Assembly (NCBI GenBank): GCA_003222195.1
Contig: QHVB01000040.1
Coordinates: forward strand, 1-64,000
Origin: Gemmatimonadota bacterium
GTDB lineage: Bacteria; Gemmatimonadota; Gemmatimonadetes; Gemmatimonadales; GWC2-71-9
Reading direction: 5' to 3'
Length of the DNA stretch: 64,000 nucleotides
Shown here: positions 46,014 through 52,112 of the stretch, piece after piece
Layout: each line of letters starts with the position of its first letter
Position numbering within the stretch: the first letter of the stretch is position 1
Translations under genes and position numbers: made by a program
Notes under the pieces: generated by a model
The model's database searches: none
What the model was told of the DNA's origin: nothing
What the model saw: the letters and a program-made list of their open reading frames with translations, nothing else

Positions 46014-46449
46014 TGGCGGATCCTCGCTTGGCGTCGAGATAATGCTGGAGCAGCAATGCCGCGGCCATCGCGTCGACGTCTTCTTTCCGCCCCCGCGTCT
46101 TGCCGCCCATTTCGCGCACCGTCGCCAGCACGCGCGCCGTCGTCATCCGCTCGTCCCACATGGTCACCTCCAGCTCACCAGCGCGCCTCTTGATATCATC
46201 GGCGAGGGCGCGAGCGGCGTGAGCCGCGTCACCTTCGGTGCCCGCCGCATCCAAAGGCAGCCCGACGATGATACCTACGACGTCGTGCTTGGTGATCAGC
46301 TCGAGCAGCTGCTGCATGGGGAACCGCTTGCCGGCGCGCCGGGTCAGCGTGGTGAGCGGCTGGGCGAGCGTCTGCGTCTCGTCAGAAAGGGCGAGACCTA
46401 TGCGGCGCTCGCCCCAGTCCACAGCCAGAATTCGCCCCGATTCCTTCAC
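46006..46449 (-). CDS. ruvX: Pre-16S rRNA nuclease / Holliday-junction resolvase-like RuvX
   Basis: 147 residues from GTG 46449, whose first bases overlap the rho stop. The RNase H-like fold has [15 protein letters not shown] with the first catalytic Asp, [14 protein letters not shown], and the C-terminal [15 protein letters not shown] with the third acidic residue. Size and motifs match YqgF/RuvX, which matures the 5' end of 16S rRNA. Confidence 0.93.
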
Positions 46450-47705
46450 CCTTGCGACATCGTCTGGAAGAACTCGTTGTTGGTTTTGGTGCGCTTGAGC
46501 CGCTCGAGCAGGAACTCGATCGCTTCCACGGGCGGCATATCGGAGAGGAAGTTGCGAAGCAGGTAGACCTTATTGAGCTCTTCCTTGGATAGGAGCAGCT
46601 CTTCCTTGCGGGTGCTGGTACGCTGCGTGTCGATCGCCGGGAACGTGCGCCGCTCGGCAATGCGCCGGTCGAGGATCACTTCGGAATTGCCGGTGCCTTT
46701 GAACTCCTCGAAGATCACTTCGTCCATGCGCGAGCCGGTGTCGATCAGCGCCGTCGCCAGGATGGTGAGCGAGCCACCGCCCTCGATGTTGCGCGCCGCG
46801 CCGAAGAAGCGCTTCGGCTTTTGCAGCGCGTTCGCGTCCACACCACCGGAGAGAATCTTGCCCGAGTGCGGCACCACCACGTTGTGCGCCCGCCCGAGGC
46901 GCGTGATCGAATCGAGCAGAATCACCACGTCCTTGCCGTGCTCGACGAGGCGTTTCGCCTTTTCGATCACCATGTCGGCGACCTGCACGTGCCGATCCGC
47001 CGGCTCGTCGAACGTGGAGGAGACGACTTCGACGTTCGGTCCTTTCACGTTCTCTTCCATGTCCGTCACCTCTTCGGGCCGCTCGTCGATCAGCAGCACG
47101 ATGAGGTAGATCTCGGGATGATTCTCAATGATGGAGTTGGCGAGTTTCTGCATCAGGATGGTCTTCCCGGCCTTGGGCGGCGAGACGATCAGGCCACGCT
47201 GACCTTTTCCGATGGGCGACAGGATGTCCATCACTCGCATGGACAGATCGCCGTCTTTGCGCTCGAGCCGGATTTTCTCCTCGGGATAGCGCGGCCGCAG
47301 GTTGTCGAACGCGACCCGATGCTTCGCCTTCTCCGGCTCTTCGCCGTTGACGACTTCGACTTTCAGCAGCGCGAGATAGCGCTCGCCTTCCTTCGGCGGC
47401 CGGACCTGACCCGTGATCGTGTCGCCGGTGCGCAGATCGAAGCGCTTGATCTGGCTGGGCGAGACGTAGATGTCGTCGGGACCGTAGAGGTAGTTCCAGT
47501 CGGCGCTGCGCAGGAACCCGTATCCTTCCGGTAGAATCTCGAGCACGCCCTCGCCGCGTAAGACCGTGTCGGAATCGAGGAGCGATTGCTCGATGCGGAA
47601 GATGAGATCCTGCTTGCGGAGCCCAGAGTAGTTGGTGATGTTCAGGCTCTCGGCCATCGCGTGTAGTTCCGCGACGGACTTTCTCTTCAATTCGGCGATA
47701 TCCAC
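46446..47705 (-). CDS. rho: Transcription termination factor Rho
   Basis: 419 residues from GTG 47705. It has an N-terminal Rho_N helix-turn-helix (1-45), an OB-fold RNA-binding domain (50-125, [23 protein letters not shown]), and the ATPase with Walker A SPPKAGKT (175-182), [13 protein letters not shown] and [15 protein letters not shown]; the R-loop GTGNSEVIL and C-terminal RRTFPAIDT follow. Length is standard. It starts an operon with ruvX and mltG. Confidence 0.97.
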
Positions 47706-47827: not shown

Positions 47828-48916
47828 GTGACCATCACAAGGTTTCTCTTGGCGTGGCGAACCACCCCCCTCCACGATCGCGAAGTCCTTGACGCGCTTG
47901 TAGATCCGGCGCACGCCGGGCCCCCTCTCTCCGCGCCGCTGGCGGAGGCCCTCCGGCAGTGGCCGGGGACCTACTACTGGTCGGACGAGGCTGACGGACG
48001 ACATCTCGTGCTCACGCGGCCCCACCCGGTGCGGCGCGAAGCATGGGGCGTCCACGCGCTCCTCTTCGCTGCGGTCCTGGCCACCACCACGCTCACCGGT
48101 GCGATGGTCGCGGGCACGATCTCGGTGCATCCCGGGGACTGGCGCGGCGCGGCATTCTTGCGAGGGCTGTCTCACGGGCTCCTGTTTTCACTGCCCCTGC
48201 TCGCGATCCTCTTTACGCACGAGATGGGGCACTACCTCACGGCCCGGCGTTACCAGGTCGACGTGTCGCCGCCGTTTTTCCTACCGGGCTTTCCGCCTCC
48301 TTTCGGCATTGGAACGTTCGGCGCGTTCATCAGGCTACGGACGATCGTGAACGACCGCCGACAGCTGCTGGACATCGGCGCCGCCGGCCCAATCGCGGGC
48401 TTTCTCGTCGCCGTCCCGATTCTGTGGATCGGGCTTCTGCACAGTCACCCCACCGCACCAGAGGGTTTTCATGGGATGGTGGTGCGCCTGGGTGACGACC
48501 TGCTCTTCCCCGGCGACTCGCTGGTGACGCTGCTGCTGCGGCGGTTGGTGGCGGGAGCCTCCGGCGATATCGCGCTGCACCCGACAGCGTTCGCGGGATG
48601 GTTTGGGATGTTCGTGACCATGCTCAATCTTCTCCCCATGGCCCAGCTCGACGGTGGTCACATCGTCTACGCCACGACCCCGCGCTGGCATCAGCCGGTC
48701 GCCAGCGCCTTCTGGCTGATCGTCATGCTCCTGGGATGGTTCTGGATCGGCTGGCTCGTGTGGGGGTTCATCGTGCTGGTGCTCTCACGCGGTCAACTGC
48801 GACATCCTCCGGTGCTTGATGCCTACCGCCCACTGCCGGCGTCCGGGCGCTGGCTCGCGTGGCTGAGTCTGTTGCTGTTTATCCTGACGTTTGCGCCGGC
48901 GCCGTTCCGATCTTAG
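47828..48916 (+). CDS. Site-2 protease (M50) family membrane metalloprotease
   Basis: 362 residues from GTG 47828. After a ~75-residue cytoplasmic N-terminus come six to seven membrane segments. The zinc site HEMGH is at about 131-135 in helix 2, with the LDGGH third ligand region near residue 274. A conserved [18 protein letters not shown] stretch is also typical of this M50 group. Such proteases cleave membrane-bound anti-sigma factors or SREBP-like substrates; none is evident here. Confidence 0.92.
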
Positions 48917-48984: not shown

Positions 48985-49269
48985 ATGCCTGCCCAACCTG
49001 CCCGATACACCCCAGCTGCTGCGACCGATACGGTCGTCCACGACCTGCCTCCCATTCGCTTCGACGGACAACCCATAGACATCCGACTCTCCCTGCGCCG
49101 CACCGAAGACGGTTTCTGGCGCGGCCGCATACTGTTTGGTGCGGAAGGGACGGAAGCGGAGCGGTCCAGCGCGGAGATCTTCTGCGCCGGCACGGAGCAG
49201 GATCTGTGGCAATCGGTACGTGACCTGCGGGATCATCACCTGCGCGACCTGTACCGCTCGCTGCTGTAA
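48985..49269 (+). CDS. Small hypothetical protein (94 residues)
   Basis: 94 residues from ATG 48985. Soluble, mixed alpha/beta: LPPIRFDGQPIDIRLSLRRTEDGFWRGRILF, then EIFCAGTEQDLWQSVRDLRDHHLRDLYRSLL. No signal or membrane segment, and no family recognised. Its TAA stop shares a base with the ATG of the HisKA-type gene, so the pair is co-translated and probably co-functional. Confidence 0.75.
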   Translation: MPAQPARYTPAAATDTVVHDLPPIRFDGQPIDIRLSLRRTEDGFWRGRILFGAEGTEAERSSAEIFCAGTEQDLWQSVRDLRDHHLRDLYRSLL

Positions 49270-49454
49270 TGGCTGATCAGAAGTCGCTGGCGAAGCTGCG
49301 GCACGACTTATCCAACCCTCTATCGGCGATCCTCGCCGAGACTCAGCTGTTGCTCCTCGCGCCGGAGAAGTACGACGAAGAGACGCTGGCCGGGCTCAAG
49401 CAGATCGAGGACCTGGCGCGCAAGATGCGGCAGATGCTGCAAAGCATAGAGTGA
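49269..49454 (+). CDS. Stand-alone histidine-kinase dimerisation/phosphoacceptor (HisKA) domain
   Basis: 61 residues from ATG 49269. Almost the whole protein is a HisKA hairpin: the H-box LRHDLSNPLSAILAE with phosphoacceptor His12, a TQLLLLAPEKYDEET turn, and a second helix LAGLKQIEDLARKMRQMLQSI. There is no CA/ATPase domain, no sensor and no membrane helix. It could be a phosphorelay or dominant-negative dimerisation partner. H-box conservation suggests selection for phosphotransfer, but function is inferred. Confidence 0.85.
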   Translation: MADQKSLAKLRHDLSNPLSAILAETQLLLLAPEKYDEETLAGLKQIEDLARKMRQMLQSIE

Positions 49455-49597: not shown

Positions 49598-49646
49598 GGT
49601 CGCGCGGGGGTAAATCACACCACGCGACCCCCGCTCTTGCGGGGGT
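49598..49646 (+). promoter_or_regulatory. Attenuator-like leader with competing hairpins
   Basis: GGTCGCG (49598-49604) can pair with CGCGACC (49623-49629). ACCCCCGC (49627-49634) can pair either upstream with GCGGGGGT (49604-49611) or downstream with the identical GCGGGGGT (49639-49646). Region 49627-49634 is thus shared, giving mutually exclusive structures as in attenuators and riboswitch expression platforms. It lies 50 nt before the TTG at 49696. Confidence 0.55.
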
Positions 49647-49695: not shown

Positions 49696-51000
49696 TTGGC
49701 TGGTCGCTGGGCCCTGCTCTTAGCTCTGAGCGGTTGGATCGTGGCTTGCGCAGGCAGGCCAGGACCTGGTCGTGTTACCCCCGCGGTGATCCCTACACTC
49801 CAAGCTGAAGCCGCACGACAACCTACAAACGCGCAGCTCCGCTTCCGGCTCGCTGCCGCACTAATGGTTGCCGGACAGTGTGATTCCGCTGTCGTGGTGG
49901 CGAGCGCCGGCCAGAGGCTGGAGCCGAGCGATGCGCTCGGCCCCATGGTGATCGGCGGCTGCCAGGAAAAAGACGGCCGCTACGATCTCGCGTTTGCTAC
50001 ATACACGGATTTCGCCAACAAGTATCCACGGGCGCGACGCGTCGCTGCCGTGCGAGCGCTCGCCCAGCTCGCGCTCCGGACCCAAGCAACCCAGACGGCC
50101 AAGCTGGCGCTGGCGCGCGAATCCACGCTCACGGCTTCGGCTCCGCAGCCCTCGACCGTCGCCGTGCTGCCGGTGACCATTGCGGGCGACTCGACCCTGC
50201 AGCCGCTGTCGCGCGGGCTCGCCGAGCTGATGACGTCCGATCTGGCGATGGTCCGCAACCTCCGTCTCCTGGAGCGCGTTCAGATCGGCGCGTTGCTCGA
50301 CGAAATGAAGCTCGGGCAGAGTGGGAGGGCCGACCCCAGCACCGCGGCGCGCGTCGGCCGCTTACTGCGGGCCGAGCGGCTGGTGCAGGGCGTCGCGGCG
50401 ATTACGCAGAACGGTCCGGTCCGCCTGTCGGCAACGGTGGTGCGCGGGGACGGCAACGTTCGCTCCGGCGCGCAGGCGAACGGGACGTTCAAGCAACTCC
50501 TCGATCTCGAAAAGCAGCTCGTCTTCGGGTTGGCGACGGAGCTGGGGATTCAGCTCACGGAAGCCGAACGGCAACGCATCCTGCGGCAGGGGCCGAAGAA
50601 CCTGGCCGCGTTCCTCGCGTACAGCCGCGGACTCGAAGCGCTCGATGGCGGCGACTATCGCGCCGCGGCCGGCGCCTTCCGTGCCGCCTCGCGCACCGAT
50701 CCCACGTTTCAGGCCGCCGCCCAGCAACGACAGGCGGCGGAGGCCGCGCCGGCCGTGGCGGCGAGGTCTGGTGACGTGGTCGCGGTCGCGCGAGCCGTCG
50801 ATCAGATCGTGCCGCCGCTGGAGCCGGCAGCGGAAGGCGCGCTGAAGCAGGTGACAGTAGACGTGTCCGCGACCGTCGGTGATGTTGCCGGGCCGAACAG
50901 CATCGGCAGCACGGTGTCGAATCCCACGCCCGAGAGCCAGGGCATCTGGAGCGTCATCCAGGCGACAGGCATCATCCGGATTATCTTCCGTCTGCCATGA
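49696..51000 (+). CDS. CsgG/FlgO-like lipoprotein with TPR-like ends
   Basis: 434 residues from TTG 49696, which follows a GGTGGGAG-type SD and gives a lipobox (VACA, Cys 18). Residues ~25-110 are helical repeat-like (TPR). Residues ~150-310 contain a CsgG/FlgO-type fold: TVAVLPVTIAGDSTLQPLSRGLAELMTSDLAMVRNLRLLERVQIG and RAERLVQGVAAI. A third helical repeat (residues ~315-350) follows. CsgG-type proteins build outer-membrane secretion pores or sense envelope state. It is co-translated with the outer-membrane protein (ATGA overlap at 50997). Confidence 0.85.
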   Translation: MAGRWALLLALSGWIVACAGRPGPGRVTPAVIPTLQAEAARQPTNAQLRFRLAAALMVAGQCDSAVVVASAGQRLEPSDALGPMVIGGCQEKDGRYDLAFATYTDFANKYPRARRVAAVRALAQLALRTQATQTAKLALARESTLTASAPQPSTVAVLPVTIAGDSTLQPLSRGLAELMTSDLAMVRNLRLLERVQIGALLDEMKLGQSGRADPSTAARVGRLLRAERLVQGVAAITQNGPVRLSATVVRGDGNVRSGAQANGTFKQLLDLEKQLVFGLATELGIQLTEAERQRILRQGPKNLAAFLAYSRGLEALDGGDYRAAAGAFRAASRTDPTFQAAAQQRQAAEAAPAVAARSGDVVAVARAVDQIVPPLEPAAEGALKQVTVDVSATVGDVAGPNSIGSTVSNPTPESQGIWSVIQATGIIRIIFRLP

Positions 51001-52112
51001 CGCTGGCGCGCAGCTGCTTCGGATGCTTGTTGCTTCCGGGAGTGCTCGCCGCGCAGGCCGCGACGGCCGTCGCGCGCACGGGCGTCACGTTCGAATCCTA
51101 CTCCTTCGGCTCGGGGCTCGCATTCGATCGCCTCAGCGAGCTCACGATTCCGGTCAGCGTCTCGCAGCGCATCGCGGGCGGCAGGCTGGTCCTCGATCTC
51201 AGCACCGCCTTTGCGCGCGCGTCCGTCACCCCAGCCGGCGGCGGAGCGGCCGCGATTACGCATTCGGGACTCGTCGACACCGATCTGCGCGCGACCTACA
51301 GCATCATTCCCGGGAAGCTGGTGCTCAATCTCGTCGGCACGATCCCGACGGGCGCGACCGGCGTACCCGATACGACGATCCCACTGTTTGGGGCGACGGG
51401 CACGCATCTCTTCGGGTTCACGACGCCGAGTTTTGGCTCGGGCGGCGCGTTTTCCGCCGGCTTTGCGTCCGCCGTCAAAATGGGTGAGAACTGGGCCGTG
51501 GGGATGGGCGCGAGCTACCGGTACGCCGCGAGCTACGTGCCGGTTCAAGGCGGTGACGAAATGAGCCCGGGCGGCGAAGTCCGCGGGCGGTTCGGCGTCG
51601 AAGGGCCGTTCGGCGCGGGGAAGTACTTCCGCGGTGCGCTCGTCTACACGACGACCGCTGCCAACGATCTCGGCGCGAGGGGCCAGAGCACAATTGGCGA
51701 CCGCGTGCTCGGGTACGTCGCGGTGAGTATGCCGTTCGGGAACTCGCAGCTCTCGTTGTACGGCTGGGACATGCGACGTCTACGCGCCCGCAACGCTGCC
51801 AGCGCGGGAACGCTGTCCGTCCCCCGCGGCAATGTGCTCGCGGTCGGGGGACGGCTCGATCGTCCCATGGGTCCCAAGGCGACGCTGTCGCCGCTGCTCG
51901 AATTCCGGCATGAGTTGACTGGGCCTGGCCCGACAATGGAACTGCTCGGTTACCTACTGCGGGCGGGTGCCGACCTGCGGTACCGGTTGAGCGATCGCGC
52001 GGCCGGGGTGATCCAGGCGCAACTGGCGTTCGGGACGCTGCACGCTGAAGGGACTAGCGTCTCGATTGTCGGTCCGCGCCTCGGCGTCATGATCGAGTGG
52101 GCGCGCCCCTAG
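50997..52112 (+). CDS. Outer-membrane beta-barrel protein
   Basis: 371 residues from ATG 50997. Sec signal (cleavage after LAAQA), then alternating strands with aromatic ends: VTFESYSFGSGLAFDRLSELTIPVS, GWDMRRLRARNAASAGT loop region, and a terminal GPRLGVMIEWARP. The overall pattern is of a 14-18-strand barrel. It shares an operon with the CsgG-like lipoprotein, suggesting a joint envelope complex. Its end overlaps the convergent RDD-SpoIIM gene by 26 nt. Confidence 0.82.
   Translation: MTLARSCFGCLLLPGVLAAQAATAVARTGVTFESYSFGSGLAFDRLSELTIPVSVSQRIAGGRLVLDLSTAFARASVTPAGGGAAAITHSGLVDTDLRATYSIIPGKLVLNLVGTIPTGATGVPDTTIPLFGATGTHLFGFTTPSFGSGGAFSAGFASAVKMGENWAVGMGASYRYAASYVPVQGGDEMSPGGEVRGRFGVEGPFGAGKYFRGALVYTTTAANDLGARGQSTIGDRVLGYVAVSMPFGNSQLSLYGWDMRRLRARNAASAGTLSVPRGNVLAVGGRLDRPMGPKATLSPLLEFRHELTGPGPTMELLGYLLRAGADLRYRLSDRAAGVIQAQLAFGTLHAEGTSVSIVGPRLGVMIEWARP

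Follow-up and report, generated by a model that had tools for sequence, protein, structure and literature searches.

What can a histidine kinase hairpin do for a cell when it is encoded on its own, with neither an ATPase nor a sensor domain? The question is raised by two small genes, here termed P and H, that lie side by side in the window, i.e. the 64,000-nt stretch of Gemmatimonadota DNA analysed here (Table 1). Their protein products, their conservation and neighbourhood, and the residues retained in H were compared across the phylum to narrow down the role of H.

Table 1 Features at the P-H locus (positions in the window)
Feature	Position	Strand	Description
rho	46446..47705	-	Fixed neighbour, divergent from the M50-P-H block
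M50 family protease gene	47828..48916	+	Fixed upstream neighbour in f1, absent in f3; Pfam and comparison of loci
Gene P	48985..49269	+	94 aa; ORF listing
Gene H	49269..49454	+	61 aa; free-standing HisKA (DHp) hairpin; Pfam HisKA
His12 codon of H	49302..49304	+	Encodes the predicted phospho-acceptor, unchanged in 80/80 f1/f3 orthologues
Asn16 (His+4) codon of H	49314..49316	+	Invariant in 80/80 f1/f3 orthologues
Glu24 (His+12) codon of H	49338..49340	+	Belongs to the receiver-facing A-E-x-Q-L signature shared by ATPase-less HisKAs

Proteins encoded at the locus

Both open reading frames were recovered as given in a preliminary description of the locus, including the single base they have in common: the final A of the TAA stop codon of P also opens the ATG start codon of H (TAATGG). 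The H protein matches the Pfam HisKA family (PF00512) over residues 6-60 (E-value 3.5e-7, 30.6 bits; curated cut-off 26.9). HisKA is its sole Pfam match, and the chain stops at residue 61 without HATPase_c, a length that is kept in relatives. Neither a C-terminal ATPase-like domain nor a match to an HPt profile was found in H, Pfam reporting HisKA alone at E-values up to 1. The earlier assignment as a HisKA hairpin lacking ATPase and sensor is thereby confirmed, as is the H-box RHDLSNPL (residues 11-18) with His12. The two helices, also claimed before, are predicted to span roughly residues 6-30 and 37-59 (core pLDDT about 94-98) in a model of the in-frame relative L062, whose stop codon was read through as Gly. 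A profile of H gave no sequence match in the PDB.

P has no match in Pfam or NCBIfam. AlphaFold (AF2) predicts a beta4-alpha2 fold with the first 13 residues disordered (pLDDT 82, pTM 0.67). Comparison of this model with the PDB yielded no fold match (best E-value 0.22), and the P profile found no sequence match there. In the L062 read-through model both parts are folded (pTM 0.51). The prediction gives neither a confident packing of P against H nor a reliable interface, which weakens the case for P as the partner of H. A Foldseek search with the same model returned no usable match. Distant relatives of P occur in other classes (L257-L261) and share the pattern WRG.I.F...RTADIF, with two copies per locus in L259 and L261; no HisKA adjoins them where neighbours were read.

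A scan for promoters and terminators assigned no site to the P-H unit. Downstream of H, at 49628-49645, a G+C hairpin (CCCCCGC-TCTT-GCGGGGG) is followed by TTTGTG; it looks terminator-like by eye and does not reach the T-run rule applied in the scan.

The 3.5-Mb genome contains 32 HisKA, 43 HATPase_c and 68 receiver matches. Among the 32 HisKA domains, only the one in the window lies in a frame (76 aa) that could not accommodate a kinase; the frames of the others measure at least 365 aa.

Conservation and genomic neighbourhood

Orthologues of H are present in 49 of 61 genomes from the same family and, in the phylum sample, in 56 of 65 genomes of this family (f1; f3 denotes its sister family and f2 another family of the same order). 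P was found in 34 of the 61 relatives. A separate search, in which named GTDB contigs were scanned with the alignment of P, retrieved 56 loci, and all 54 that carry a phylum label belong to Gemmatimonadota. At 54 of these 56 independently fetched loci, H follows P at a distance of -8 to +8 bp. Within the genus, dN/dS ranges from 0.08 to 0.29 for H and from 0 to 0.07 for P. Judged from its breadth across genomes, its near-constant spacing and purifying selection at the sequence level, H is an old, conserved and selected gene and not a broken kinase. Relatives that show nothing but recent kinase truncations, the outcome that would speak against a genuine gene pair, are not what was observed.

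The search for the same two-gene unit was thus successful, and P and H form a conserved, closely spaced pair. The view of P as the partner of H is nevertheless weakened, since the association is not obligatory. H occurs without P in 19 f1 genomes, where it directly follows the M50 protease gene or rho at the loci that were read, and P occurs without H in a few genomes or loci (G015/L089, G017, L107). An obligate two-gene unit is therefore ruled out, each gene being found without the other.

The gene order mltG-ruvX-rho (minus strand) followed by M50 protease-P-H (plus strand) is kept across f1. In f3, the M50 gene is missing between rho and P-H; no part in the mechanism of H is claimed for the protease. 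Downstream of P-H, f1 genomes encode either a CsgG-like/TPR gene together with an outer-membrane-type gene, or an RDD gene. In the window (49696-52112), a lipoprotein-type gene of the CsgG-like/TPR kind has a four-base overlap with the outer-membrane-type gene, and much of the family shows this arrangement after P-H.

A second rho gene is present in many Gemmatimonadales genomes, with an identity to the canonical gene of about 49% (L146-L149, L151-L156, L163). The f2 copies have a long arginine-rich N-terminal extension and a small HisKA gene directly upstream. These f2 loci also include a divergent TPR-like gene (12 of 12) and a single-domain receiver gene (8 of 12). In f1, no HisKA was detected within 1.5 kb of this second rho (G000:C84:42287-43324 in the window genome), and none adjoins canonical rho in f2. 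One might imagine that Gemmatimonadota hold an unrecognised family of minimal ATPase-less HisKAs, dedicated receiver phosphatases or relays encoded repeatedly beside rho, that would pass two-component signals on to Rho-dependent termination with P as a modulator; we consider this a long shot.

Residue pattern and the wider lineage

In HisKA kinases, the acidic residue directly after the acceptor His (+1) is required for autokinase activity only, while the Asn at +4 is tied to phosphatase activity. The +1 acid is present in all 26 kinases compared from the window's own genome. Among 80 f1/f3 orthologues of H, the acceptor His and Asn(+4) are invariant and the acid is found in 77. In 24 f2 relatives, His and Asn(+4) are again invariant, and the acid is left in 4; it is also lost in a few f1 genomes. 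H and its relatives thus carry the Thr or Asn at His+4 that is expected of a HisKA-type receiver phosphatase. Since the f2 branch mostly lost the acid and kept both His and Asn, autokinase is not the activity under selection there.

A further signature lies on the receiver-facing side of the hairpin. Glu at His+12 is found in 115 of 115 ATPase-less HisKAs (f1/f3, f2, f5 and f9) versus 1 of 26 kinases of the own genome, and Ala(+11), Gln(+14) and Leu(+15) hardly vary in the former (A-E-x-Q-L), in a sample that favours the H signature because relatives were collected with the profile of H itself. In EnvZ, the partner-choice positions T250, R251, L254, A255, E257 and M258 correspond to +7, +8, +11, +12, +14 and +15 relative to His243 (PMC2991266). 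Near-fixation at receiver-choice positions is the pattern expected with one constant partner. The bundle-core positions of ChpT (His-2, +2, +6 and +9; PMC3433190) correspond to L10, L14, L18 and I21 of H. In one f9 protein, L304, Arg replaces the acceptor His (RD..S), the sole such loss seen among ATPase-less HisKAs.

The H profile detected further HisKA domains without ATPase in the phylum sample. Some f2 relatives are small proteins of ~60-90 aa, others (L155, L156) have a receiver-like N-terminus. Those in f5 and f9 (L157-L160, L162, L165) are about 200 aa long, with the ATPase-less HisKA at the end and a receiver-like, apparently degenerate N-terminus. The eight proteins with such an N-terminus, which was judged by eye and is not called by Pfam, share the signature and the side of the tree with H but differ from it in size (about 200 aa) and, in f5 and f9, in being encoded beside two-component genes: upstream of a PilS-type kinase and an NtrC-type regulator in f5, and upstream of a receiver-HD protein in f9.

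When 91 HisKA domains were placed in a tree, a branch with 99/97 support separated all 66 ATPase-less ones from the rest; the alignment has 61 columns and the kinases come mostly from one genome. The tree supports, but does not prove, a lineage of ATPase-less HisKAs that spans the phylum, includes H and stands apart from the sampled kinases. H shares the HisKA domain and H-box with HisKA-class sensor kinases, to which the 31 other HisKA matches of the genome belong. It differs from them in the absence of ATPase and sensor, in its A-E-x-Q-L face and in its position on the opposite side of this branch.

Possible functions of H

As far as can be judged from sequence, H most likely handles phosphate on signalling partners. 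The reading we favour, with a probability of roughly 0.45, takes H for a free-standing DHp protein dedicated to acting on receivers, either as a response-regulator phosphatase or as a phosphoryl sink. This is suggested by the invariance of His and Asn(+4) in 104 of 104 sequences (f1/f3 and f2) together with the loss of most +1 acids in f2, by the retention and selection of H as a hairpin-only gene, and by relatives that adjoin single-domain receivers, a PilS and NtrC-type pair or a receiver-HD protein. Receiver dephosphorylation appears to fit the residue pattern best, followed by a relay. The phosphotransfer role proposed in the preliminary description is possible; the lineage pattern points at least as much to dephosphorylation, since the autokinase acid was lost and the Asn linked to phosphatase activity was kept along with the His. 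Other points count against the receiver-acting reading. The acid retained in most f1/f3 orthologues would not be needed by a pure phosphatase, none of the receiver matches of the genome is located on the window's contig, and collecting relatives with the H profile favoured the H signature.

According to the receiver-acting reading, two H hairpins would form the usual four-helix bundle, with which the hydrophobic core positions are consistent. The bundle may then dock phosphorylated receiver domains that are encoded elsewhere. Removal of the phosphoryl group would proceed by attack of a water molecule positioned by Asn16, by transfer onto His12, or both, and would require no ATPase in H itself. 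P, co-encoded in many genomes, may modulate H. A precedent for a hairpin acting alone is provided by the isolated DHp domains of EnvZ and NtrB, which show phosphatase activity (PMC3510030). Like H, they consist of the HisKA hairpin with the motif H-[DE]-x-x-[TN]; these laboratory constructs are cut-down kinases, whereas H is a natural conserved gene.

Several other roles were considered for H. Among the closest known proteins are Spo0B and ChpT, dimeric DHp-type histidine phosphotransferases with a C-terminal ATPase-like domain. They have in common with H a kinase-type helical hairpin of similar length (residues 20-83 in ChpT, PMC3433190), an acceptor His and the lack of an autokinase activity of their own. 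H could accordingly be a phosphorelay shuttle that receives the phosphoryl group from the receiver of a hybrid kinase on His12 and passes it to a final response regulator. The invariant His12 and H-box agree with such a role, and several frames of the genome with both HATPase_c and receiver matches represent hybrid kinases. However, H ends where Spo0B and ChpT continue into the ATPase-like domain, no receiver is linked to H in the window's family, and transfer as such does not require a strict Asn(+4). A relay is therefore conceivable, though doubtful. It is unlikely that H supplies the DHp part of a kinase that is split or mixed, with His12 phosphorylated by a CA domain in trans or, in a heterodimer, by a full kinase. 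Most f1/f3 orthologues do retain the acid and a few of the HATPase_c matches are in short frames (169 and 182 aa), but the acid is missing from most f2 relatives (20 of 24) and from some f1 genomes, and none of the loci read has a CA gene linked to H. The absence of a linked receiver in f1, where the acid is mostly kept, leaves some room for both a relay and phosphorylation in trans.

Close co-encoding with P and conserved hydrophobic bundle positions would also be expected if H were a structural or dimerisation adaptor, of P or of another protein, that takes no part in phosphate chemistry. Such a role would hardly explain why His12 and Asn16, both at the surface, are strictly invariant and why the receiver-facing side is conserved; the genomes that retain H without P and the lack of a confident P-H packing argue in the same direction, and we regard an adaptor as improbable. 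A remnant of a truncated kinase would equally present a HisKA domain with no ATPase. Length and spacing, however, are constant in dozens of genera, the gene is under purifying selection and its branch is separate from the sampled kinases, which reduces the chance of a remnant to almost nothing.

H is a minimal, new ATPase-less form of DHp-type phosphate-handling protein; in the open-access literature, no HisKA-only family was found described. If receiver dephosphorylation by the hairpin is indeed its task, a natural conserved gene of this kind would mean that evolution makes use of the bare HisKA hairpin. With 61 residues, H offers a system for separating what the H-box contributes to kinase, phosphatase and relay activity. 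Across relatives, the acid needed for autokinase was lost while His and Asn were retained, a pattern that predicts which of these activities is selected.
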